Shown: positions 6,428 through 21,650 of the stretch, piece after piece | Numbering within the stretch: the stretch's first letter is position 1 | How the letters are laid out: every line of letters begins with the position of its first letter | Assembly (NCBI GenBank): GCA_905612295.1 | Contig: CAJQRN010000046.1 | Coordinates: 1-32,037, forward strand | Length of the DNA stretch: 32,037 bases | Direction: 5' to 3' | From: an uncultured Candidatus Nitrosopumilus sp. | GTDB lineage: Archaea; Thermoproteota; Nitrososphaeria; Nitrososphaerales; Nitrosopumilaceae | Made by a program: the position numbers and the translations under genes | The notes under the pieces: generated by a model | Told to the model about the DNA's origin: nothing | What the model saw: the letters and a program-made list of their open reading frames with translations, nothing else | Databases searched by the model: none

Positions 6428-7615
6428 ATGGGACTTACTATGACGGATTTTAGTTTAGACTTGTTGGTTGAGACATTACCATCTAAAGTCACTCAAAAAA
6501 ATTACAAATACATTTTAAATAAATTCTTAGAGTTTGGCAAGTTTTCAAGCTATGATAACATTATAGAAACTGATGTTAAGAAGCTGGATAAAATAATCAA
6601 GGCTTACATCATTAGTTTGAAAAGTACAATGAATCCAAACTCAGTTCCAAGTTACGGTGATGCAATCAAGTCATTTCTGGAAGCAAACGATGTTGATCTT
6701 AATTGGAGAAGAATCAAGAAACTGTATCCAAGACCTGCAAAAAAGACAGGCCAGTCAGCATACTCCACTGAAGACATACAACTCATGCTAAAGCATACTG
6801 CCAAGATTAGAAACAAGGTTTTCATTCACTTTCTTGCAAGTACGGCAGTTAGAGTTAGTGCATTAGATGAACTGAGGATGAAAGACCTCAGGGACATGCC
6901 TCATGGCTGCAAGATGGTTACAGTCTATGCAGATGATATTGAAGAATACAGGACGTTTCTAACACCTGAGGCAAGTTATGCTTTAGGCTTGTATCACAAA
7001 GAGAGACAAGAAAAAGGTGAAATTCTAGATGAAGATAGCCTCGTATTTGTAAAGCTGAACGGAAAACCTGTCGACAAGTCATCCACTGGAATGATTATTC
7101 ATAGAGCATTGGTTAGAGCAGGGTTGAAAGTTACAAACCACGATAAGGATAAGGGATTTAGGCATAAAGTTCAACTAAATCACGGTTTTAGAAAGCGATT
7201 CAATACAATTCTCAAGTTAAACAATGAAGTCAATGACAATGCCATTGAGAAAATGATGGGACATTCAAAAGGACTGGATTCAACGTACCTGCAAATTACA
7301 GATGAGAAACTGTTTGATGAATTTTGGAAAGGTGTTGATGAGTTGACCGTATCAAGTGAGTCCAGAGACAAGCTAAAGATTAGAGAGTTGGAAAAAGAAA
7401 ATGCAAAAGTTAGTGAAGAAAGGATACAGGAATTACAGGATCAAATTAATGAAATTCAAGGCCATGTCAAAGAAAGGGATAAGACTATGGATTACAAAAG
7501 AACTATGAAAATATTAGAAAGTACAGGACAGATAGAAGACATTCCAGCACACCAACAAATTGAAATGCTCACACCAAAACAAAAAGATTTGTTGTTAGAA
7601 AAAATATTCAGATAG
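6428..7615 (+). CDS. Tyrosine recombinase / integrase
   Basis: This 395-residue protein is a site-specific recombinase of the phage-integrase superfamily. Residues 1-100 form a SAM-like core-binding domain. The catalytic domain (about 110-300) shows Arg142 in STAVRVSALDEL, His252-x-x-Arg255 in NHGFRKRF, His279 in MMGHSKG and nucleophile Tyr287 in STYLQ, i.e. the R..HxxR..H..Y set. Residues about 310-355 are a charged coiled coil and the last 40 are helical, an extension beyond minimal Xer proteins. A TATA-like GTATAAATC lies near 6395-6403. Met5 (MTDFSL) is an alternative start. It points to an integrated element or a chromosomal recombinase; no clear attachment-site pair was found in the window. 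Confidence 0.9.
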   Translation: MGLTMTDFSLDLLVETLPSKVTQKNYKYILNKFLEFGKFSSYDNIIETDVKKLDKIIKAYIISLKSTMNPNSVPSYGDAIKSFLEANDVDLNWRRIKKLYPRPAKKTGQSAYSTEDIQLMLKHTAKIRNKVFIHFLASTAVRVSALDELRMKDLRDMPHGCKMVTVYADDIEEYRTFLTPEASYALGLYHKERQEKGEILDEDSLVFVKLNGKPVDKSSTGMIIHRALVRAGLKVTNHDKDKGFRHKVQLNHGFRKRFNTILKLNNEVNDNAIEKMMGHSKGLDSTYLQITDEKLFDEFWKGVDELTVSSESRDKLKIRELEKENAKVSEERIQELQDQINEIQGHVKERDKTMDYKRTMKILESTGQIEDIPAHQQIEMLTPKQKDLLLEKIFR

Positions 7616-11435: not shown

Positions 11436-12464
11436 TTGGATACAAAAAAGCCAACTGTGATCGAATTATTTGCAGGTGCTGGAGGAATGGCATTGGGACT
11501 TGAAAAGGCAGGATTTGAAACAAAATTACTAGTGGAATATGACAAGGACTGTGTTGCAACATTGCAAAAGAATAGACCAAAATGGAATGTTACACATGAT
11601 GATATTCATAACATAGATTTCAAAGGAATGAAGGCAGATGTTGTCACAGGGGGTTTTCCGTGTCAGGCATTTAGTCATGCGGGAAACAAATTAGGATTTG
11701 AAGATACTAGGGGGACATTATTTTATGAATTTGCAAGAGCTGTAAAAGAGATAAACCCAAAAATTTTTGTTGCAGAAAATGTTGAAGCAATTTTAAGAAA
11801 TCAAGATGGAGAAACAATTAAGGTAATCATGGATGTCTTGGGATCATTTGGTTATGATGTACGTTATGAAATTTTAAATGCTGTAAATTATGGAGTTGCA
11901 CAAAAAAGAAAACGTGTTATTTTTATCGGTACAAAGAAAGGAGTTAAATTTCAATATCCTAAACCTCAAAAGAATTCATTCACTTTATCTGATGCATTAA
12001 AAGATGTTCCAGATTCTGTTGGCAGTAAATATTCTGAAGAAAAAATAAAAATGCTAAAACATGTTCCACCTGGCGGTTCTTGGGTAAATATGCCAGTTGA
12101 GGTTCAAAAAAAATACATGGGAAAAAGCTTCTACTCTAGTGGAGGTAGACGTGGAATGGGAAGGAGAATTGCTTGGGATGAGCCTTGTCTTACTTTGACG
12201 TGCTCACCTGGTCAAAAAATGACTGAAAGATGTCATCCTGATGCTGAAAGACCATTTACCGTAAGAGAATATGCTCGAATTCAATCATTTCCAGATTCTT
12301 GGACATTTGTTGGAAGTATTTCATCTCAATACAAGCAGATTGGAAATGCCGTACCTGTAAAATTGGCAACTGCTGTAGCAAAAGAAGTTTACAAATCAAT
12401 TATGCATCCTGAGTTATTAGAAAAAATTCCAGTACAATCTAAAATTAAACATTTTGTAAAATAA
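11436..12464 (+). CDS. C5-cytosine DNA methyltransferase (GGNCC/GGWCC class likely)
   Basis: This 342-residue enzyme transfers a methyl group from SAM to C5 of cytosine in a short DNA site. The ordered motifs are complete: I FAGAGGMALG (12-21), IV GGFPCQAFS with catalytic Cys76, VI AENVEAI (Glu114), VIII QKRKRVIFIG (156-165), IX REYARIQSFPDSW, and X QIGNAVPVKLA. The segment GGRRGMGRRIAWDEPCLTLT with TERCHPDAERPF resembles the Sau96I/SinI/Eco47II group, which modifies GGNCC or GGWCC. The start is TTG at 11436. It is convergent, 49 bases away, with an Eco47II-like endonuclease gene, so the two form a type II restriction-modification pair. The exact recognition site is inferred. Confidence 0.95.
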   Translation: MDTKKPTVIELFAGAGGMALGLEKAGFETKLLVEYDKDCVATLQKNRPKWNVTHDDIHNIDFKGMKADVVTGGFPCQAFSHAGNKLGFEDTRGTLFYEFARAVKEINPKIFVAENVEAILRNQDGETIKVIMDVLGSFGYDVRYEILNAVNYGVAQKRKRVIFIGTKKGVKFQYPKPQKNSFTLSDALKDVPDSVGSKYSEEKIKMLKHVPPGGSWVNMPVEVQKKYMGKSFYSSGGRRGMGRRIAWDEPCLTLTCSPGQKMTERCHPDAERPFTVREYARIQSFPDSWTFVGSISSQYKQIGNAVPVKLATAVAKEVYKSIMHPELLEKIPVQSKIKHFVK

Positions 12465-12513: not shown

Positions 12514-13158
12514 TTAAAATGAATCGTCAAACCATTTTTTAGTTGTTTTTGTATCTGATTTTAAAGCTTTATTCACTGCTTCCCATGTCTTATCTAATGC
12601 ATCTTTATCGCCTGTAACAAGCTTGTATACTTCTTTTCCCCAAACTTCCTTAATTCTTGGATGATTCACATCTTTTTTTACATTCCATACTCTAGGTTTG
12701 CCACTACTTCCATCTTTTGCATTGATATATGCATAATATGCCGTTGCCTTTTTGTTTTCTTCTACAATTTTTTTTAATTTTTTAAAAACATCTATTTTAT
12801 TCTCTCCCTTGGTTGTATTCCATTTATTTTTTAATTCGATGTAAATCGTATTATCATCATTAGTTATGTCTAGTTGTTTACCTACTTTCAAATCTTTCCA
12901 ACCTTTTAAACTACCTAGTAACTTTTGATGAAAATATCCAATTTTCATACTAACGTTTGTATCTTTTTGTATTGATATTGTAATTTTTTTCCATTTTTCT
13001 AAATCTAATCCCATTTTTTTCATATCAAAAACAGTTTTGAATGGATCAATCCCATTTTTCCTAATGTCTCTATTTTCTTCACCATATGCATCCGTAACAG
13101 ATTGAATTAGTTCCTCGAAAATTTCATCTGAAATAAAATCTACATATTGGTTTGCCAC
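12514..13158 (-). CDS. Eco47II-like type II restriction endonuclease
   Basis: The protein should cut unmethylated copies of the site protected by the adjacent methyltransferase. The diagnostic part is IGYFHQKLLGSLKGW followed by QLDITNDD and YIELKNKWNTTKG, a PD-(D/E)XK-type site with Asp97, Glu108 and Lys110, matching what I recall of the Eco47II family. The frame is open from 13332, but the first 58 codons look non-coding. A GTG at 13156-13158 gives MANQYVDFISDEIFEEL, matching the expected family N terminus, and a TATA-like CTTTTATAAT (13178-13187, minus strand) lies 20-29 bases upstream, as for a leaderless mRNA. The product is 214 residues. It is convergent with the methyltransferase. Confidence 0.85.
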   Translation of the reverse strand: MANQYVDFISDEIFEELIQSVTDAYGEENRDIRKNGIDPFKTVFDMKKMGLDLEKWKKITISIQKDTNVSMKIGYFHQKLLGSLKGWKDLKVGKQLDITNDDNTIYIELKNKWNTTKGENKIDVFKKLKKIVEENKKATAYYAYINAKDGSSGKPRVWNVKKDVNHPRIKEVWGKEVYKLVTGDKDALDKTWEAVNKALKSDTKTTKKWFDDSF

Positions 13159-13382
13159 ACAAAAAGTTTTTTTTAAATTATAAAAGAATTGGCAAATACC
13201 GAATAAATAATTAGAAAATATACAATTTGACCCTACAGGCTCACATCTACTTTTCTTTACGTCAATCATGTTATTGCTAACAGTAACGTGGCTAGATCTT
13301 AAGCATTTTTTGAATCTCATTGCAATAGACATTCTTAAGTTTCCAAATAATTACAAAGAATATTGTTTTTGGAGAATCATAA

Positions 13383-16300
13383 ATGGCATTAAATCAGGCA
13401 CAAAATCAGGCAGTAGAACATACCAGTTCGCCTTTACTACTTGTAGCAGGTCCTGGAAGTGGTAAAACTAGAGTCATAATTGAGCGAATTGTGAGACTAG
13501 TAAATTCAGGCATAAAACCTGATGAGATTCTTTGCCTTACATTTACCAAAAAGGCAACTGAAGAAATGTCTCAAAGGTTAGAAAATAAAGACATTACAGA
13601 TGTTCAAATTAACACATTCCACTCTTTTGCAAAATCCGTTCTACAAGATAATGTGCTAGAATCCGGAGTAAACATTTCTTCAGGGGTTATCAAAAGATCT
13701 GCACAACTGGCATGGGGTCTGAAAAATATTGATTCATTTGATTTTCAACATGTAACGATAGGAAATAACGCTGAAGATTTGATTCGCTCAATCATAGATG
13801 GTATCAGAACTTTCAAAGACGAATTAATTTCCCCAGAAACATTAAAAAAATATCTTGATAAAATGGAATCTGAAGAATTAACTGAAGAGAAACGTGATTT
13901 AATTAATCGACTAAGTGACTTGCATAGAGTATATGTAAAGTATCAAGAATTTTGGGAAGCAAAAAGTGTAATTGACTTTAATGACATTGTAGTTGAAGCA
14001 ATTAATTTACTAAAAACAAAACCACTGATTCAACAAAAATTACAAAATAAATACAAACACATTTTGGTTGATGAGTTTCAAGACAACAACTATGCACAGT
14101 TAGAAATTGTAAAATTAATTTCAAATGGAGTGGATGTCACTGCCGTTGGGGATGACGATCAATCTATATTTAGATTCCAAGGTGCATACATGAAAAACTT
14201 CAGTGATTTTGAAAAACACTTTAAAAATACCAAAATAATCAATCTTGATCAAAATTATCGTAGTACTCAAAATATTGTAAATTTGTCAAACAGTATAGTA
14301 TCCAACATTGAAGAGCGACAAAAAAAGAATCTGTTTTCTAAAAATATTGAGGGTGAAAAAGTAAAGGTCTGTATTTGTACAAATGAGAATGCAGAGGTTG
14401 AATTTGTTGTAAAAACAATCAAAGAACTACTTGGAAAGCCAATAACGCGAGAAGATGGAGAAAAAGGAGTAATATCCTACAGTGATATCGCAATATTATC
14501 AAGAAGTAGAAAATCAGGCGTAAAATTTGTAAAATCACTCAAAGCCCATGGATTACCTGCTGATTTTGTAGGCTCAGACAACCTGTTTGCCACCCCTATA
14601 GTCAAAGACGTGATGGCCTATCTGAACATTGTAAATTCACCAGCCACTGCAGGCAGAGAGATTGCAAGGCTCCTCAAAAATCATGGAATTACTGAATACA
14701 ATGTGGCTAAAATTAACCACTTGGGAGAAAAGTTATCTGATTCAGACAATCCTGGCGTAGATTTTGTCTTGAAATCATTACAAGAGATTGCAAGTCAAGA
14801 CATTACACAGAAAAAAGAGATACTAGAATTTGTTGATATTCTAAACAAATTATCAGAACTATCAAAGTATCGTCCTAGTGATGTAATTTACAAAATTATA
14901 ATGTCTATTTCTGGACTGTACAAAAAATCCATTTCAGATAATAGTACAACAAATCGAATTAATCAAATTTTACTAAAGGAAATTTACGGATATGCATTAG
15001 AATATGAAAATCTATACCCTGAAGAATCACTAACTGATTTTATTTCTTATCTAAATTATTTATTTAGATTTGATTTGGAATTACCTGAAGAATTGGAAGA
15101 AGATGAAAGCATTTTGGTAACTACCATACACCAAAGTAAAGGCAAAGAGTTTCAGGTAGTCTTTGTAGTTGATGCAGCAAAAGACAAACTACCACTACGT
15201 GCAAGAACTAAGAAATTCTATGTACCTGAAGATCTAGCGAAGGGTCTGGTTAGAACTGCAGATGAAAAGACATTGCACATTTTAGATGAGAAACGATTAC
15301 TATACGTTGCAATGACCAGAGCTAAAAGTCATCTGTACATTACATATGCGCAAGACTATGAGAATAGAAAAAAGGAAGCACAGCCATCACCATTTTTAGA
15401 TGAGATTGATTTTAAAAATAATCCACGAATAGAAGTTATACCATACAAATCTAACACTGCTGTACAACTGTCCACTGGCGAGCATTTAGAACAACTAAAG
15501 GCAGAACATCAGCAAATTGCTGTCACATCAATTAATCAAATGAATCTAAACACTGCAGTTCGTAAAATTATCGATTTGGCCAAAATCAAGCACTTTGAGG
15601 AGTTTGGCAATCTGGATACCTTTGATCCTGCTAAATTGTTTGAAATCGAGCCTGAAGAATCCCATATTGACGCCCAATTATACAAAAAATCCATACCACT
15701 AATCAAAAAAGACAACTTTAGACTCTCACCATCAAAAATTCAAACCTATGAGAACTGCCCATTGCAGTTCAAATTCCAATATGTGCTACGAGTACCAACA
15801 CCTTCAAAGACATACTTTGGTATGGGAACTGCCATACATTCTGTTGCTGAAAATCTTACAAAAATGCAAAAAGACGGAAAAGAGTCAACTGAGCAAGCAG
15901 CATTTGAGATTTTAGAAAAACAGTGGGAAACATCATCATATAGAAACCAAAGAACAAAAGAAAATCAAGACAAAGTAAAGTCAAAAGATATGGTGAAGAC
16001 CTACATGGAGTGGGAGAAAAATAATCCAAACACTCCTGTTGATGTAGAGGCAAAGTTTAGAATTGAAATTAATGATGTAACAATTTCAGGAATGATTGAC
16101 AGAGTAGAGCAAACCCCTGAGGGTGAATATGAGGTAGTTGATTTTAAAACAGGTTATGCATACAAAAACAAAAACACAATCAAAGAGGATGTGCAAATGA
16201 ACATCTATGCATTAGGAACTGAGAAACTGTATGGCAAACTACCAAAGAAAACATCCCTGTTTTACATCAAAGACAACAAGTTTGTCCCACACTTTATTGA

Positions 16301-16445
16301 AAAGGAAGCACTTGATGAGTTTACAAAGTCATTGGGTGAAAAAGTTGATAATATTTTTGATGAGAAGTTTGATGCTGCACCAGAATTTAGAAAATGTTCT
16401 AGATGTGACTATGCATCAATTTGTGATGCAAAGGAGGAAATTTGA
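13383..16445 (+). CDS. UvrD/PcrA-like helicase fused to a RecB/AddB-like Fe-S nuclease
   Basis: A 1020-residue superfamily 1 helicase with a C-terminal nuclease. Helicase motifs: Q-motif (LNQAQNQAV), Walker A AGPGSGKT (22-29), motif II VDEFQD (about 230), VGDDDQSIFRF (about 257), LDQNYRS (about 293), TTIHQSKGKEF (about 580) and YVAMTRAKSHL (about 640). From about 780: SPSKIQTYENCPLQFKF, GMGTAIHSVAE, GMIDRVEQ and VVDFKTGYA form a PD-(D/E)XK site, with a final CSRCDYASIC. With the Cys of ENCPLQF this gives the four Cys of an AddB/Cas4-type 4Fe-4S cluster. It probably unwinds and degrades DNA ends in repair or defence. mcrB follows after 7 bases, suggesting an operon. Confidence 0.92.
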   Translation: MALNQAQNQAVEHTSSPLLLVAGPGSGKTRVIIERIVRLVNSGIKPDEILCLTFTKKATEEMSQRLENKDITDVQINTFHSFAKSVLQDNVLESGVNISSGVIKRSAQLAWGLKNIDSFDFQHVTIGNNAEDLIRSIIDGIRTFKDELISPETLKKYLDKMESEELTEEKRDLINRLSDLHRVYVKYQEFWEAKSVIDFNDIVVEAINLLKTKPLIQQKLQNKYKHILVDEFQDNNYAQLEIVKLISNGVDVTAVGDDDQSIFRFQGAYMKNFSDFEKHFKNTKIINLDQNYRSTQNIVNLSNSIVSNIEERQKKNLFSKNIEGEKVKVCICTNENAEVEFVVKTIKELLGKPITREDGEKGVISYSDIAILSRSRKSGVKFVKSLKAHGLPADFVGSDNLFATPIVKDVMAYLNIVNSPATAGREIARLLKNHGITEYNVAKINHLGEKLSDSDNPGVDFVLKSLQEIASQDITQKKEILEFVDILNKLSELSKYRPSDVIYKIIMSISGLYKKSISDNSTTNRINQILLKEIYGYALEYENLYPEESLTDFISYLNYLFRFDLELPEELEEDESILVTTIHQSKGKEFQVVFVVDAAKDKLPLRARTKKFYVPEDLAKGLVRTADEKTLHILDEKRLLYVAMTRAKSHLYITYAQDYENRKKEAQPSPFLDEIDFKNNPRIEVIPYKSNTAVQLSTGEHLEQLKAEHQQIAVTSINQMNLNTAVRKIIDLAKIKHFEEFGNLDTFDPAKLFEIEPEESHIDAQLYKKSIPLIKKDNFRLSPSKIQTYENCPLQFKFQYVLRVPTPSKTYFGMGTAIHSVAENLTKMQKDGKESTEQAAFEILEKQWETSSYRNQRTKENQDKVKSKDMVKTYMEWEKNNPNTPVDVEAKFRIEINDVTISGMIDRVEQTPEGEYEVVDFKTGYAYKNKNTIKEDVQMNIYALGTEKLYGKLPKKTSLFYIKDNKFVPHFIEKEALDEFTKSLGEKVDNIFDEKFDAAPEFRKCSRCDYASICDAKEEI

Positions 16446-16452
16446 TTTAGAT

Positions 16453-19020
16453 ATGACTCTTTTAGAATTTTTAAAAAGTAACCCAACAATGTTCCAAAAC
16501 TATCAGGCGATTGTAATTAAAACACTTCTAGAAAATGACTCAAAATTTCCTTCAACAGTAAATGAAATTAAAAATAAAATAGTTGAATTAAATTTTGATA
16601 GAGAAGATTTTAAGATTAATAGTGCTTGGTCAACTGTAAAGAAAGTACTAGATGACCATAATGTTATTTCAATTAATGGCGAAAATGTAAAACTAAATAA
16701 TGAAAATATTTCGGATGTAGAAAAAACTGAATGTTTAAAAATTTGTGGGCAAAAAATTGTAGAATTTCACATTGATAAAATTGTAAAAGGTGATTATAAT
16801 TTATGGCGAATGCCACCTGGGAGTGCAGAGGAAAAATATCCTTTCAAACTCGAATTTCTAAAATCTAATACAATAGGGGTAGGATGGGGGGAAATAGGAG
16901 ACGATGTAGTAAAGAAAAATATGACAAAAGAGCAGACGAAGGCATTATTTCATAAATTATATCGGCCAATAGATGGAAAATCAAATTCTCCACAATCTTT
17001 TACAAATTTTACACATGAAATAAAACCAAAAGATATCATTGTATTAATTAAAAAAAAGACAATACTTGATTTTGCAATTGTTGTAGGTCCATATCACTAT
17101 CAAAAAGATCCGTCTATTGACTTGCCAGACAACGCTAAATCATATAGCCATAGACGTAATGTTGTTTGGTTAAATCGAGGACCAATACCTGAAAGTGAAG
17201 CATTTGAGTTATCAAGAATGTCTGCATGTGACAGAGTCAAAGATGCACAACTAAAAGAACAATACCTTGCTATTCTTCGAGAAGAAAAACTACCCCGGTA
17301 TTTTCTTTTAAGACATAATGCAAAAGGTCCTTGGAAGGATGATCCAGGGAAGAAATACCATATTGGTAGGGATGAAAAAGATGGGAGGATGGGCAAAAGA
17401 GTTAGGCTCATACTTGATGCAGGTGTTGGTACAAAGACAATTTGGTATTCTACATCTAAAGGGGAATTTTATTTTTGGGGATATGGAACGGTTACGGGGA
17501 TTGACGAGGAAAAGAAAGATACAGATTGGTATCTAACATATAATGATTTTAAATTTTTTGAAGGAGATGTAGATGTTCAGGGAAGAGAACTAACACGAGC
17601 AACTGCATCTGTTAATCAACAACTCCAAGATCTTCAGGGGGATAAAAAATGGAAAATGAATTGGCAGTTTCCAATTAATCCAATCCCAAAAAAACTTTAT
17701 CAACAAATCATAGGAGAAGATTTAACTTCTGAAGAAGACAAAGTAGATACTGTGTCTATGGATAATTATCTGAATATATTAGATTGGAAACCAAATTTAG
17801 TTTTGTATGGTCCACCCGGTACAGGCAAAACATTCATTGCAAGAGAATTAGCTAAAAAAATACAAAAGAAAAATAAATTACCGGATATTTTTATGCTAAA
17901 AGGACCATGGTCTAATTGGGAACCTAATATGGCTAGGCCTAATCCATCATGGGCAACAACTGATGTCCAAAGTAATCTTAGTCAATACAATTTAATGAAA
18001 ATTGGAGATTATGTTATATTTCAAAACAATACTGATGATCTTGGTCCATACCCTGGCGTTGGTTATTTTGGAATTGGAAAAATAACAAAATTGTTTGATT
18101 CCTCTAAACCTTTTTTTGCAGATGAAATTAAAGAAGGAAAAATTCTTTGGCAAAAACGTTTAGAATTTGAAATAATTAAAAAAGTAGATGGAACACAAAT
18201 GATTCCTAGAATGGATGGATTACCCGAAACAAAAGGTTTGAGTAGAATTGCTAATGAAGATAATATTAGAAAATTATTAGACGAAATAGAATCAAAATGG
18301 GGCATAATCATACGTACAAAATTAATCACTTTCCATCCATCCTATTCTTACGAAGATTTTATCGAAGGTATTAGGCCAAAAACAATTGGTGATCAGGTGA
18401 CATACAATCTTGAGGATGGAATATTTAAAAAAATATGTAATGAAGCAAGGAAAGACAACCAAAATCCTAAAAATAAATATGTATTAATCATAGATGAGGT
18501 TAATCGTGGAAATATTTCAAAGATTTTTGGAGAATTAATAACTTTAATTGAAAAAGATAAACGAAATAATTTATCAATTAATTTAGCATATTCTAAAAAA
18601 GAATTTTCAATCCCAGATAATTTGTACATAATTGGTACTATGAACACTGCAGACAAAAGTTTGATACAGATGGATACTGCATTGAGAAGAAGATTTACGT
18701 TTATGGAATTGATGCCAGATTATGAATTACCTCAAATAGATAGAAAAATTGGTAAAATAAACCTGGCCAAATTACTTAAAGAATTGAATAAAAAAATTAG
18801 AAACCAAAATTTAAGAGATAAACAAATTGGACACTCTTATTTTATGAATATTACAAATATTTCAGAATTACAACGTGTATTCGAATATGAGATAATTCCT
18901 CTCTTACAAGATTATTTTTATGATGACTATGATTTATTAGAAAAAATTTTAGGCAAAAAAATTATTTCTAAAAATGACATGTCAGTTAATCATAAATTTA
19001 TTAATTCACTAAAATTTTGA
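16453..19020 (+). CDS. mcrB: McrB-type AAA+ GTPase with multiple EVE/PUA-like segments; C terminus apparently frameshifted
   Basis: McrB is the motor and DNA-reader of McrBC modification-dependent restriction. The AAA+ core has Walker A GPPGTGKT (about 453-460), FHPSYSYEDFIEGIRP (about 627), Walker B LIIDEVNRGN (about 679) and the McrB signature GTMNTADKS (about 728). Residues 1-85 look like a winged helix. EVE/PUA-like segments are suggested at about 117-237 (LWRMPPG, GVGWGEIG), 282-375 (IWYSTSKGEFYFWGYG) and, unusually, inside the ATPase between Walker A and FHPSYS at about 489-590 (GDYVIFQNN, GYFGIGKIT, PFFADEI, WQKRLEFEI). The frame is open from 16231 but its first 74 codons overlap the helicase gene; ATG 16453 is the better start (855 aa). 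The +1 frame runs on to an ATGA overlap with mcrC. Confidence 0.9.
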   Translation: MTLLEFLKSNPTMFQNYQAIVIKTLLENDSKFPSTVNEIKNKIVELNFDREDFKINSAWSTVKKVLDDHNVISINGENVKLNNENISDVEKTECLKICGQKIVEFHIDKIVKGDYNLWRMPPGSAEEKYPFKLEFLKSNTIGVGWGEIGDDVVKKNMTKEQTKALFHKLYRPIDGKSNSPQSFTNFTHEIKPKDIIVLIKKKTILDFAIVVGPYHYQKDPSIDLPDNAKSYSHRRNVVWLNRGPIPESEAFELSRMSACDRVKDAQLKEQYLAILREEKLPRYFLLRHNAKGPWKDDPGKKYHIGRDEKDGRMGKRVRLILDAGVGTKTIWYSTSKGEFYFWGYGTVTGIDEEKKDTDWYLTYNDFKFFEGDVDVQGRELTRATASVNQQLQDLQGDKKWKMNWQFPINPIPKKLYQQIIGEDLTSEEDKVDTVSMDNYLNILDWKPNLVLYGPPGTGKTFIARELAKKIQKKNKLPDIFMLKGPWSNWEPNMARPNPSWATTDVQSNLSQYNLMKIGDYVIFQNNTDDLGPYPGVGYFGIGKITKLFDSSKPFFADEIKEGKILWQKRLEFEIIKKVDGTQMIPRMDGLPETKGLSRIANEDNIRKLLDEIESKWGIIIRTKLITFHPSYSYEDFIEGIRPKTIGDQVTYNLEDGIFKKICNEARKDNQNPKNKYVLIIDEVNRGNISKIFGELITLIEKDKRNNLSINLAYSKKEFSIPDNLYIIGTMNTADKSLIQMDTALRRRFTFMELMPDYELPQIDRKIGKINLAKLLKELNKKIRNQNLRDKQIGHSYFMNITNISELQRVFEYEIIPLLQDYFYDDYDLLEKILGKKIISKNDMSVNHKFINSLKF

Positions 19021-19105
19021 AGACGAATTAGAAAAAATTTGCAAGAATGAATTAGATGATGAAAATATTGATTCCGACAAAGAACCTGTCAAAGAATTAC
19101 AATGA
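19021..19105 (+). pseudogene. Out-of-frame 3' tail of mcrB
   Basis: Directly after the TGA at 19018-19020, the +1 frame continues as FEDELEKICKNELDDE and NIDSDKEPVKELQ to a TGA at 19103-19105. This stop overlaps the mcrC ATG (19102-19104) in a perfect ATGA. One T too many in the AAAATTTT run (about 19010-19017) would explain it. It may be a real mutation, a programmed slip or a sequencing error. Confidence 0.6.
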
Positions 19106-20430
19106 TTGAGCCAATTGAGCTTTTTGAACATCAAGAGTGGCCATCAACTGATGTCGAGAAAATAATTTCAAGAAAAATTGAACTTAATGAATCTGATAGA
19201 AAAATAGTTAAATTTCTCAAAAATGAAAATATTGTAGAATTTGACGAGTTAAAAAGTGGCATACGAATTAAAGCACAGCAATTCATAGGAACTGTATCGT
19301 TTTCAGAATTTAGTCTAAAAATTATACCAAAAATTTACAAAATTCAGAAAAAATCTATTTGGAAAAATATTGCTCAATGTATGCATTTTACTAAAAATTA
19401 TTCTCCAGAAAAAATTATTGATTTTAATAAAATATCTATCAATGATGATGATTCAATTTTACAAGATTATCTTGTATGGACATTAGTGTACGAATGTAAT
19501 GAGCTACTTCGTAGAGGCCTACTCAAATCATATGTAACACATGAAGAAAATTTATCTTATTTGAAGGGGAAAATAATTTTAAAAAATCAATTTCAAAACG
19601 ACATGGGAAAAAAAGTAGGATTTTATTGTGAATATGATGAATTAGAATTTGATAATATTGAAAATAGAATTATTCTACAGACATTAATTCAATGTAGGAA
19701 AATTGTAATAAATTCTGAATTAAAGAAACAAGTTTTTAAATTGATTGAACAGTTTTCTGGAATTGTCCAAAAAGTTCCTATCACTGTAAATGATATTAAA
19801 AGAGTAAGGGGAGCATATGACCGACAAAATATTTCCTATCGGGATTCACATATTATTTGTGAAATGATTATAGAAAATAAAGGAATTTCTGATTTTTATA
19901 ATGATAAAGAAAATCAATCTTTTTCAGTACCGTTTTTTGTTGACATGAATAAATTATTTGAAGATTTTGTTACAAAACTATTTGAAGTATACTGTCATGA
20001 TAAAATATTTACACAAAAAAAACAAAAAGCGTGGATTATAGATGATACAAAACAAAATATTAAAATGATTCCTGATATAATTTTACAAAATAAACGTAAA
20101 GAAATTACAATTATTGATGTAAAGTATAAGAACAAATTAGGGTATAATGATCTTTATCAAATTGGATTTTACATCCATGAATATACAAGTGAAAATAAAG
20201 AACAAGAAATTAAGTATGCATATGCAATCCTTCCCAATTTTTCAGAAACACCAAACATACAAAAAAGTTATCAAGCAACTAAAAGTAAAATTAAGATTTA
20301 TACAAAATTTATTTCTATGGATGAATATATTCAGTTAATTGCTAAACCAAATTCTAGAAAATATATAGTTGATAAAATTCAGACTGAGATCCTAAATCCT
20401 GATGACATAAAGAAACATTATCTACAATAA
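19102..20430 (+). CDS. mcrC: McrC-type nuclease subunit
   Basis: McrC is the nuclease partner that joins McrB hexamers and cuts DNA. The 442 residues carry the family pattern: an N-terminal beta domain (GIRIKAQQFIGTVSF, then SLKIIPKI), a helical centre (LVYECNELLRRGLLKSYV), the conserved FDNIENRIILQTL, then VPFFVDMNKLFEDFVTKLF and a PD-(D/E)XK site with Pro324-Asp325 (MIPDIIL) and Asp339-Val-Lys341 (IIDVKYK). The start overlaps the stop of the out-of-frame mcrB tail as ATGA, so translation was evidently coupled to an intact mcrB. The 3' end overlaps the convergent small-gene operon by 13 bases. Confidence 0.92.
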   Translation: MIEPIELFEHQEWPSTDVEKIISRKIELNESDRKIVKFLKNENIVEFDELKSGIRIKAQQFIGTVSFSEFSLKIIPKIYKIQKKSIWKNIAQCMHFTKNYSPEKIIDFNKISINDDDSILQDYLVWTLVYECNELLRRGLLKSYVTHEENLSYLKGKIILKNQFQNDMGKKVGFYCEYDELEFDNIENRIILQTLIQCRKIVINSELKKQVFKLIEQFSGIVQKVPITVNDIKRVRGAYDRQNISYRDSHIICEMIIENKGISDFYNDKENQSFSVPFFVDMNKLFEDFVTKLFEVYCHDKIFTQKKQKAWIIDDTKQNIKMIPDIILQNKRKEITIIDVKYKNKLGYNDLYQIGFYIHEYTSENKEQEIKYAYAILPNFSETPNIQKSYQATKSKIKIYTKFISMDEYIQLIAKPNSRKYIVDKIQTEILNPDDIKKHYLQ

Positions 20431-20711
20431 TGTACCAATTTTACAATTCCACGTTTTGCTAATCGAATAAAATTATCATCAACACCATATTTCTCAAAGA
20501 TTCTTCTCAGAAAATAAGACCTGACAAAAGATACTGTGGCATAAACTGCAGTGATTGCAATATTTGCCATGTATGGATCCTCTTGAATCCAACCCATAGA
20601 GAGCGGTAACACAACAATCCCCACCCCATATCCTATAGGATAGCCTCCAAAGGAGTTGACTAGTGCCTCAGATGCACTTTTCTTTTTAGAATCTACTGCC
20701 TCATTTGACAT
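20418..20711 (-). CDS. Small two-span membrane protein, phage-like (DUF7220-like pattern)
   Basis: Last of six overlapping genes, 97 residues. The sequence AVDSKKKSASEALVNSFGGYPIGYGVGI, then a second hydrophobic stretch with VYATVSFVRSYFLRRIFEKYG, fits small membrane proteins often seen in phages and plasmids, where a short N-terminal helix with E-A-x-x-N and G-Y precedes two spans and a terminal RSYxxRR motif. The family name is from memory and tentative. It starts with an ATG sharing one base with the previous stop (TAATG). It points to a viral or plasmid origin of this operon. Confidence 0.75.
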   Translation of the reverse strand: MSNEAVDSKKKSASEALVNSFGGYPIGYGVGIVVLPLSMGWIQEDPYMANIAITAVYATVSFVRSYFLRRIFEKYGVDDNFIRLAKRGIVKLVHYCR

Positions 20712-20977
20712 TATTTGATATCCTCCATGATATCCCCATCAAAATCATAATCGTCTTCGTTTCTTTCACCCCATTGGTGGTGGCAATCTGTACACTCCCA
20801 TTTTGGATCATCATCTGATATTAGACAGCCTCCTGGAACAATTTTTTTATCATATATTGCTTGAATTACCTCATCATTTCCTGGGAATCCCCAAAAAATT
20901 ATTGCAACATTATTTTTATTACATTCGGGACATGATGGTTTAGTTTCTGTCAATTTTTCAACCTTATCGTCTATCAT
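20711..20977 (-). CDS. Zinc-ribbon protein (88 aa)
   Basis: It contains SCPECNKNNVAIIFWGFPG at about residues 15-33 and PGGCLISDDDPKWECTDCHHQWG at about 48-70, a two-knuckle zinc ribbon with the extra conserved GGC turn known from small bacterial and phage proteins of unknown function. The C-terminal tail is strongly acidic (ERNEDDYDFDGDIMEDIK). The pattern CPxCNxxNVxIxF...PxWxCxDC is shared with the larger protein at 8604-9365. The ATG overlaps the preceding gene's stop as ATGA. It may bind nucleic acid or act as a protein-interaction module; no function is assigned. Confidence 0.8.
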   Translation of the reverse strand: MIDDKVEKLTETKPSCPECNKNNVAIIFWGFPGNDEVIQAIYDKKIVPGGCLISDDDPKWECTDCHHQWGERNEDDYDFDGDIMEDIK

Positions 20978-21159
20978 TCTGATTTCTCCATTTTTTTACC
21001 ATTTAATTTTGAATCAAATTCATCTTTGAATGAGTTATAGTACTCTATGATTTTATCCAGGTCATCGAATCGAAGTAATGCATAGTTGTCATGGTTTTCT
21101 TTTTCACGAATCATTAATCCTATGTTACACTCAAAATTTTCTAAATCTAATTGCTTCAT
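20974..21159 (-). CDS. Unrecognised 61-aa protein of the six-gene operon
   Basis: The protein reads MKQLDLENFECNIGLMIREKE, then YALLRFDDLDKIIEYYNSFKDEF and ends KLNGKKMEKSE. The central 'ALLRFDDLDKIIEYYNSF' looks like a strand followed by an amphipathic helix. No family is recognised. Both ends overlap neighbours as ATGA (start with the 63-aa gene, stop with the zinc-ribbon gene), a strong sign of a coupled operon and of real coding. Confidence 0.7.
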   Translation of the reverse strand: MKQLDLENFECNIGLMIREKENHDNYALLRFDDLDKIIEYYNSFKDEFDSKLNGKKMEKSE

Positions 21160-21347
21160 CTCATTCTCCTTTTGAAAAATTTATCGCTCCACTCTTCTTC
21201 TTCTTGTGCATATACTGCTAATGCTTGAATTTTGATCAATGTTTTTTGATATACTTCAACATCATCATCTTCAACATCACGGAATGCTTTTTTGTACCAA
21301 TAAAGAATGGACTGTAAATCGTTTTGATTTAATCCTCTATCCCTCAA
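21156..21347 (-). CDS. Unrecognised 63-aa acidic helical protein
   Basis: It reads RGLNQNDLQSILYWYKKAFRDVEDDD followed by VYQKTLIKIQALAVYAQEEEEW and a basic end KFFKRRMR. Two amphipathic helices are likely. The start is TTG (21345-21347), preceded by AGGAGG about 7 bases upstream and overlapping the stop of the previous mini-gene as TTGA; the codon and ribosome site together fix the start. The stop overlaps the next start as ATGA. No family is recognised. Confidence 0.7.
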   Translation of the reverse strand: MRDRGLNQNDLQSILYWYKKAFRDVEDDDVEVYQKTLIKIQALAVYAQEEEEWSDKFFKRRMR

Positions 21348-21457
21348 ACTGATTCCTCCTTATTTTCATATTGTTCTAGTTTTTCTTTGAGATTTGCAAA
21401 TGAAGATAGGATACTATCATGACGTGACTGATTTTTCATTTGAAATAGTACCGTCAT
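21344..21457 (-). CDS. 37-aa protein of the six-gene operon
   Basis: The product reads MTVLFQMKNQSRHDSILSSF, then ANLKEKLEQYENKEESV: a short hydrophobic start and a long charged helix, perhaps a coiled-coil peptide. The ATG (21455-21457) overlaps the previous stop as ATGA and has GGAGG upstream. The stop TGA overlaps the TTG start of the next gene. No family is recognised; the evidence for coding is the chain of overlaps and the ribosome sites. Confidence 0.6.
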   Translation of the reverse strand: MTVLFQMKNQSRHDSILSSFANLKEKLEQYENKEESV

Positions 21458-21567
21458 GCTTTTCCTCCATAGTACATTGGTTCGTCATCATCTTCAAACT
21501 CTCGGATTATTATTGGAAAAAATGTGATCTCCGAGTTTGTTTTCTTTTGAATTACTTGCTGTTTCAT
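21454..21567 (-). CDS. 37-aa protein, first gene of the six-gene operon
   Basis: The product reads MKQQVIQKKTNSEITFFPII, then IREFEDDDEPMYYGGKA. The basic N terminus, hydrophobic middle and acidic C terminus suggest a compact beta-type peptide or an interaction motif. It lies directly behind the promoter: a TATA-like ATAATAATACT lies about 27 bases before the ATG on the minus strand, and a palindrome is just upstream of that. No ribosome site is visible, consistent with a leaderless first gene. No family is recognised. Confidence 0.55.
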   Translation of the reverse strand: MKQQVIQKKTNSEITFFPIIIREFEDDDEPMYYGGKA

Positions 21568-21606
21568 GTATTGTATATGGTACTAGTATTATTATGACAC
21601 ATGTCC

Positions 21607-21631
21607 ATAGTATGCATACTATTCATACTAT
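21607..21631. promoter_or_regulatory. Perfect 16-bp palindrome plus extra half-site (likely operator)
   Basis: ATAGTATGCATACTAT (21607-21622) is a perfect palindrome, and the half-site CATACTAT is repeated at 21624-21631, nine bases further on. The site sits 40-64 bases upstream of the first gene of the six-gene operon, next to its TATA-like region, where a repressor or activator dimer would bind. The ATAGTAT core matches the arms of the inverted repeat at 10462-10496. Operator function is inferred. Confidence 0.55.
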
Positions 21632-21650
21632 TAGGCGTAATAATGTTTAA

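Follow-up and report, generated by a model that had tools for sequence, protein, structure and literature searches.

Restriction enzymes only cut DNA, and archaea are not known to possess RecBCD. In E. coli, chromosomes broken by McrBC are degraded by RecBCD (PMC2614495). Type IV systems of the EVE-McrB/McrC kind combine an McrB GTPase with an NxxD motif, one or more readers of the EVE superfamily and a McrC nuclease of the PD-(D/E)xK type, and both EVE-McrB fusions and frequent insertions into the McrB GTPase domain have already been described (PMC11090510, PMC7641849). Fusions of a UvrD helicase with a Cas4 nuclease (UvrD-Cas4) are found next to restriction genes in bacteria and mesophilic archaea; the passages found in the describing paper predict that the family is an ancillary defence component with non-conserved contexts, and name type III restriction-modification (RM) and Dcm/Vsr genes as its conserved ones (PMC5704561). 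Here, a locus was analyzed in which a UvrD helicase-nuclease gene is followed by mcrB and mcrC (Table 1). It lies in a stretch of 32,037 nucleotides from an uncultured Candidatus Nitrosopumilus sp. (GenBank assembly GCA_905612295.1, contig CAJQRN010000046.1), referred to as the window. With a probability of roughly 0.55, the locus is an accessory EVE-McrBC type IV operon with a co-expressed helicase-nuclease that would degrade the ends made by McrBC. The arrangement combines known kinds of system and is not a new kind.

The helicase-nuclease has 1020 residues and matches the Pfam families UvrD_N (1e-66), UvrD_C (1e-47) and PDDEXK_1 (7e-42). Helicase motifs I-VI are kept and, like the nuclease residues H819, D906, D920-x-K922 and Q938 and four cysteines of the Fe-S type (C792, C1005, C1008 and C1014), are invariant in 19 relatives. 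With a UvrD motor joined to a PF12705 nuclease that retains catalytic residues and Fe-S cysteines, the protein is, judged from its sequence, a UvrD-Cas4 (PF12705) fusion as described by Hudaiberdiev et al. 2017. It differs from the published fusions in its company, as McrBC and the type IIG and type I partners seen in Nitrosopumilaceae are absent from the passages found in that paper (PMC5704561). The nearest solved structures are PcrA/UvrD, AdnAB and AddA/RecB. An SF1A UvrD motor, a RecB-family nuclease of the Fe-S type and the expected degradation of ends are shared with AdnAB, RecBCD and AddAB; in contrast to these, the fusion is a single gene with neither a second motor-nuclease nor a RecC/AddB subunit adjoining. 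Pfam searches detected no second AdnAB, AddAB or RecBCD subunit at the locus, where the neighbours are a restriction endonuclease (REase) and McrB. No GajA of the Gabija system was found among the adjacent proteins tested with Pfam and PADLOC, and the likeness to GajB is UvrD similarity only.

The second gene encodes a GTPase of the McrB type, which matches NF008457 at 1e-49 and carries the Walker A motif GPPGTGKT (residue 453), the Walker B motif VLIIDEVNRG and the signature MNTADKS (residue 730). The downstream nuclease McrC matches PF10117 at 2e-42 and has an intact PD...DVK motif. The closest solved relatives are McrB (1e-56) and McrC (6e-10; 6ut5) of Thermococcus gammatolerans. In McrB, a winged-helix-like N terminus (residues 1-112) is followed by an EVE/PUA-like region (112-262) and a second PUA-like region (262-435), both of which are common to EVE-type proteins of relatives. 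The AAA+ GTPase domain is itself split between Walker A and the stretch FHPSYSYEDF by an insertion (residues 474-622) that is 30-33% identical to proteins of relatives (L125, L072 and L073), each with a weak Pfam match to EVE. As an AlphaFold2 (AF2) model of the whole McrB had low confidence in the reader regions, the inserted domain alone was modelled again (pLDDT 79). Foldseek matched this model to 2p5d/MJECL36, YTH domains, the THYN1-5mC complex 5j3e, 2eve and the T. gammatolerans McrB N-domain 6p0f (E 3e-4 to 3e-2, TM about 0.4-0.55). According to the model, the inserted segment is an EVE/YTH fold within the GTPase domain, and McrB is thereby predicted to carry the modified-base reader of a type IV enzyme. 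Pfam searches with the isolated reader segments of McrB matched no family.

These features place the locus closest to the EVE-McrB/McrC type IV systems (PMC7641849, PMC11090510), from which it differs by the EVE domain inside the GTPase together with two further reader-like regions, and by the UvrD-Cas4 gene that heads the putative operon. The McrBC of T. gammatolerans (6ut3-6ut8; N-domain 6p0f) likewise has an EVE/YTH-type reader, but this reader is N-terminal, YTH-like and directed at m6A, and an inserted EVE domain is missing. Helicase genes that are operonic with McrB-like GTPases or RM genes are also found in type II CoCoNuT and in ARMADA/DISARM-like systems (PMC11090510, PMC12458937). 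There, however, the helicases are UPF1-like with coiled-coil tandem nucleases (CoCoNuT) or of the YprA type (ARMADA/DISARM), neither of which is present in the window. Membership in CoCoNuT was considered and rejected, as the window motif is NTAD (NxxD) instead of NxD and the helicase is of the UvrD type. A probable modification-dependent restriction enzyme of another architecture, with EVE, SRA-like and HNH domains, was seen in a relative (G041; L072, 5839-7212) with a tyrosine integrase close by.

The gene order of UvrD fusion, mcrB and mcrC had been proposed in a sequence-only reading of the window, and it was confirmed on one strand with intact catalytic motifs. The gap of seven bases was also correct, with the fusion ending in TGA at 16443-16445 and the mcrB ATG at 16453; same strand and short spacing agree with the proposed operon as far as packing is concerned. 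Recurrence of the order in archaea was followed by a search of 250 genomes of the family, of which 30 have the UvrD fusion and 12 have McrC. Six genomes have both, so that the fusion is present in 6 of the 12 McrBC genomes versus 24 of the 238 others (hypergeometric p = 0.001, uncorrected for kinship, genome size and defence load). That the trio is unique had held across samples of the phylum and was overturned by this family-wide search, which found the same order in one other genome (G536), belonging to another genus. There, one contig carries the UvrD gene, followed after 54 nt by the N-terminal half of McrB, and a second contig carries the C-terminal half with an overlapping mcrC. The two contigs (C10 and C61) have an exact end overlap of 55 nt, unique in the assembly, which joins the halves into an McrB frame of 871 residues. 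Identity to the window proteins is 37% for UvrD and 41% for McrC. In the McrC tree, the window and G536 fall in one clade (97/94), whereas in the UvrD tree the G536 protein clusters with L066 and L127 (100/100), apart from the window protein, which is placed among Nitrosopumilaceae orthologues and forms a separate deep branch. Because the McrCs share a clade and the UvrDs do not, either UvrD and mcrBC came together on two occasions or one helicase was exchanged, and two origins are probable on the basis of the trees. As a second genus arrived at the same order with another helicase lineage, the helicase-nuclease and McrBC probably cooperate. Adjacency in two genera with non-sister helicases, though both genes are uncommon in the family, suggests an order beyond chance. 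In a further McrBC locus of the window's clade (G543; L322, 7906-12520), a gene for an MBL-fold nuclease-like protein precedes mcrB by 44 nt, at the place that UvrD-Cas4 occupies in the window and in G536, and may be an alternative end-processing partner.

Several observations weigh against this reading. McrBC was not found beside the fusion in 28 of the 30 genomes that have it, and of the family's eight McrBC loci whose upstream gene is visible, two have UvrD and six (G395, G591, G187, G543, G511 and G611) lack it; loci in G014, G113 and G550 are cut by contig ends. The helicase-nuclease is therefore not a dedicated part of McrBC. In other families, no McrBC locus that was seen has a UvrD fusion upstream. 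The co-occurrence test does not account for genome size or for kinship (G395 and G591, for example, belong to one genus), the order in G536 rests on a contig-end overlap in an assembly that is 63% complete, about half of the fusion loci have no nearby restriction gene, and in the window itself the mcrB frame is disrupted close to the 3' end of the gene. Among distant UvrD loci, none of the best 80 matches listed in a profile scan of genome contigs has an adjoining McrC, and a contig scan with the window UvrD alone confirmed no relative. The placement of UvrD with mcrBC in the sequence-only reading is thus borne out by its recurrence in G536 and by co-occurrence in 6 of 12 genomes, and has to be qualified in that it is a minority arrangement of McrBC and that the fusion is mostly found elsewhere.

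The same reading had named a helicase kept in one core context without mcrBC in most relatives as evidence against it; what was found are varied contexts, and the helicase-nuclease is an accessory gene in the family. It directly precedes a type IIG enzyme in G031 and G120 (with relics in G009), a type IIG-like/Cas4/type I set in G163, a DUF1156 methylase in G576, an SNF2 set in G047 and a Schlafen-like helicase in G535. Elsewhere it lies beside type I (G036), type IIG (G032) or C5-cytosine methyltransferase (MTase; G155) genes, or alone. At about 10 of the 23 resolvable loci of the family, the fusion is located no more than 75 nt upstream of a large same-strand gene, mostly a defence gene; of the control loci, 1 of 14 (an mcrBC locus) has restriction genes nearby. 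A type IIG RM enzyme was also seen directly downstream of UvrD-Cas4 at L061, L123 and L065 (three genomes, one copy decayed), and at L061 and L065 a Mre11-like/Rad50-like/HATPase trio adjoins as well. On plasmid pMETHO01 of Methanomethylovorans hollandica (L288), a full-length UvrD-Cas4 (35%) is followed by helicase-related and HSP90-like genes with a restriction endonuclease close by; no mcrBC was found at this plasmid locus. Large genes with odd or unknown domains lie directly 3' of UvrD-Cas4 at L312 (10453-12207, with KTSC/INT_rpt domains), L315 (10748-12445) and L316 (5530-7554).

Alternatively, the UvrD-Cas4 and McrBC genes and the neighbouring type II RM pair may be independent mobile cassettes that were brought together by chance in a defence island and do not cooperate. 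The fusion is mostly found without McrBC and McrBC mostly without the fusion, the RM pair occurs by itself in another genome (G013), and the non-syntenic region to the right of base 2489 contains a tyrosine integrase and tRNA genes. We consider such an assembly unlikely, as it leaves unexplained why two genera with unlike helicase lineages have the genes in identical order, on the same strand and closely spaced, and why the fusion repeatedly lies just upstream of large, mostly defence-related genes.

In the preferred reading, McrB rings bearing EVE/PUA readers would bind foreign DNA with a modified base other than the mark of the local MTase, GTP hydrolysis by McrB would activate McrC to make double-strand cuts, and UvrD-Cas4 would load on the cut ends, unwind and degrade them. 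The recognition and cutting steps are predicted from the McrB and McrC families; the degradation step is suggested by domain content and position, by the double recurrence and by the precedent of RecBCD. UvrD-Cas4 would then be a general end-processing helper that heads several restriction modules and has been paired with McrBC at least twice. In a stronger form, which we put forward only tentatively, UvrD-Cas4 and EVE-McrBC would be a three-component type IV system that has recruited the helicase-nuclease independently at least twice and requires it; for example, it may load on McrC-cut ends or remodel a stalled complex.

The ends processed could also be those of the host. UvrD-Cas4 would in this case prepare chromosome ends from self-cutting for repair instead of destroying foreign DNA, much as RecBCD and RecA repair McrBC breaks and lower their lethality in E. 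coli (PMC2614495), and in family f18 an orthologue indeed adjoins Mre11-Rad50 in two genomes (L133 and L135) with no restriction genes near. This safety role appears rather improbable given that the fusion is patchy in Nitrosopumilaceae and accompanies defence genes, in line with the ancillary defence role predicted in the passages found (PMC5704561).

The junction of mcrB and mcrC bears on whether the operon still works in this strain. The sequence-only reading had coupled mcrC to mcrB. In its own frame, mcrB stops at 19020, which is 81 nt upstream of the mcrC ATG, and the only overlap (ATGA, 19102-19105) is made by a tail in the +1 frame, so that coupling is seen solely across a frame break. 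This tail, NFEDELEKICKNELDDENIDSDKEPVKELQ, is similar to the C-terminal helix seen in other McrBs (L070 and L111), and the mcrB frame is therefore taken to be broken ahead of the final ~27 codons. An error in the assembly, a mutation or a recoding site (e.g. a programmed +1 frameshift at TTT TGA) may account for the break. If it were a sign of decay, the operon would no longer work; mcrB does stop about 27 codons short of the conserved end, and the mcrB of G395 is broken as well (L110, 10304-13749; split mid-GTPase beside an A-rich run, the relative in G591 being unbroken). Decay is nevertheless quite improbable, as the GTPase core, the readers and McrC are intact and the break follows a AAAATTTTG run, where it may be an assembly error.

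Upstream of the helicase-nuclease lies a separate type II RM module of the Eco47II kind. The C5 METHYLTRANSFERASE matches PF00145 at 1e-88, and the REase on the opposite strand (PF09553 at 4.5e-41), overlooked in the sequence-only reading, probably starts with GTG at 13158, because its Pfam match begins at residue 64. This start would leave ~224 nt upstream of the UvrD gene for divergent promoters; a promoter scan with a sigma-70-type model, which is bacterial and wrong for archaea, gave chance-level matches. A homologous convergent pair (MTase 87%, REase 48% identical) is present without UvrD or mcrBC in G013 (L226, 8387-10390), where it adjoins the same tRNA-Arg/tRNA-Val pair as in the window. 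The adjoining REase and the pair in G013 identify the MTase as one half of a type II RM module. The Eco47II/SinI family suggests GGNCC/GGWCC as site, which may apply to the window pair as well. The convergent arrangement of a PF09553 endonuclease and a C5 MTase is that of Eco47II/SinI-type systems. GGNCC is not avoided in the window genome (observed/expected 1.19 in 737 kb, with the specificity taken from the family only).

The sequence-only reading had rightly seen a C5 MTase next door and concluded, as McrBC classically detects the base that it makes, that the readers must ignore this context or recognise another modification. The paradox posed in this way finds no support, for the MTase has a probable cognate REase. 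That MTase and McrBC form a single RM system is highly improbable and was rejected despite the precedent of PcaRCI, in which McrBC-like subunits occur with a Dcm-like methyltransferase (PMC8989522), and the frequent linkage of mcrBC homologues to methyltransferases (PMC2614495), since the convergent Eco47II-family nuclease adjoins the MTase and the pair exists without mcrBC in G013. The constraint on the reader stands if the MTase makes GG(N/W)m5CC, as its family suggests. M.SinI (GGWm5CC) provokes killing by E. coli McrBC, and of five McrBC homologues (four archaeal) none responded to M.SinI in the same test (PMC2614495). A mark of this kind would be attacked by E. coli McrBC; the window McrB would therefore have to ignore it, recognise a different base or lack activity.

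Collinearity of the window with eight relatives of the genus (82-93% at the DNA level) ends at base 2489 within tatC, where every relative compared breaks off; this base may be an island boundary or an assembly join. The DNA to its right is non-syntenic and contains tRNA genes and the tyrosine integrase (6428-7615). The region is accessory, and the EVE-McrBC type IV system is best read as mobile. Thaumarchaeal integrated elements carry RM genes and CBS proteins as known cargo (PMC6563490); no att-like repeats of at least 20 nt were found at the tRNAs. A DUF7220 gene (20418-20977) and its neighbour (about 21000-21633) share 79-86% DNA identity with G014, G029, G047 and G032. A second copy of this block is present in the same genome (G000 C6), and in G014 the block also adjoins mcrBC; it looks like a hotspot flank.

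Table 1. Features of the UvrD-mcrBC locus and the adjoining RM pair in the window
Feature	Position	Strand	Basis
C5-cytosine DNA methyltransferase	11436-12464	+	PF00145, G013 pair
Eco47II-family type II restriction endonuclease	12514-13158 (longest ORF to 13332)	-	PF09553, G013 homologue
Presumed promoter region of UvrD-mcrBC operon	13159-13382	between divergent REase and UvrD genes	coordinates
UvrD (SF1 3'-5' type) helicase with C-terminal Cas4/RecB-like PD-(D/E)XK nuclease	13383-16445	+	Pfam, conserved motifs
mcrB	16453-19020	+	GTPase motifs, domain comparisons, AF2
Predicted EVE/YTH-superfamily reader inside McrB	17872-18318	+	identity to EVE proteins, AF2, Foldseek
mcrB tail, +1 frame	19010-19105	+	likeness to McrB C-terminal helix in L070, L111
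mcrC, nuclease subunit PF10117	19102-20430	+	Pfam, PD-(D/E)xK motif PDIILQNKRKEITIIDVK

One kind of helicase-nuclease standing before unrelated restriction systems, and twice before EVE-McrBC, suggests a portable clean-up enzyme. The adjacent C5 MTase in turn predicts that the McrB of the window must not read that mark, which would provide a clean test of EVE-McrB specificity.

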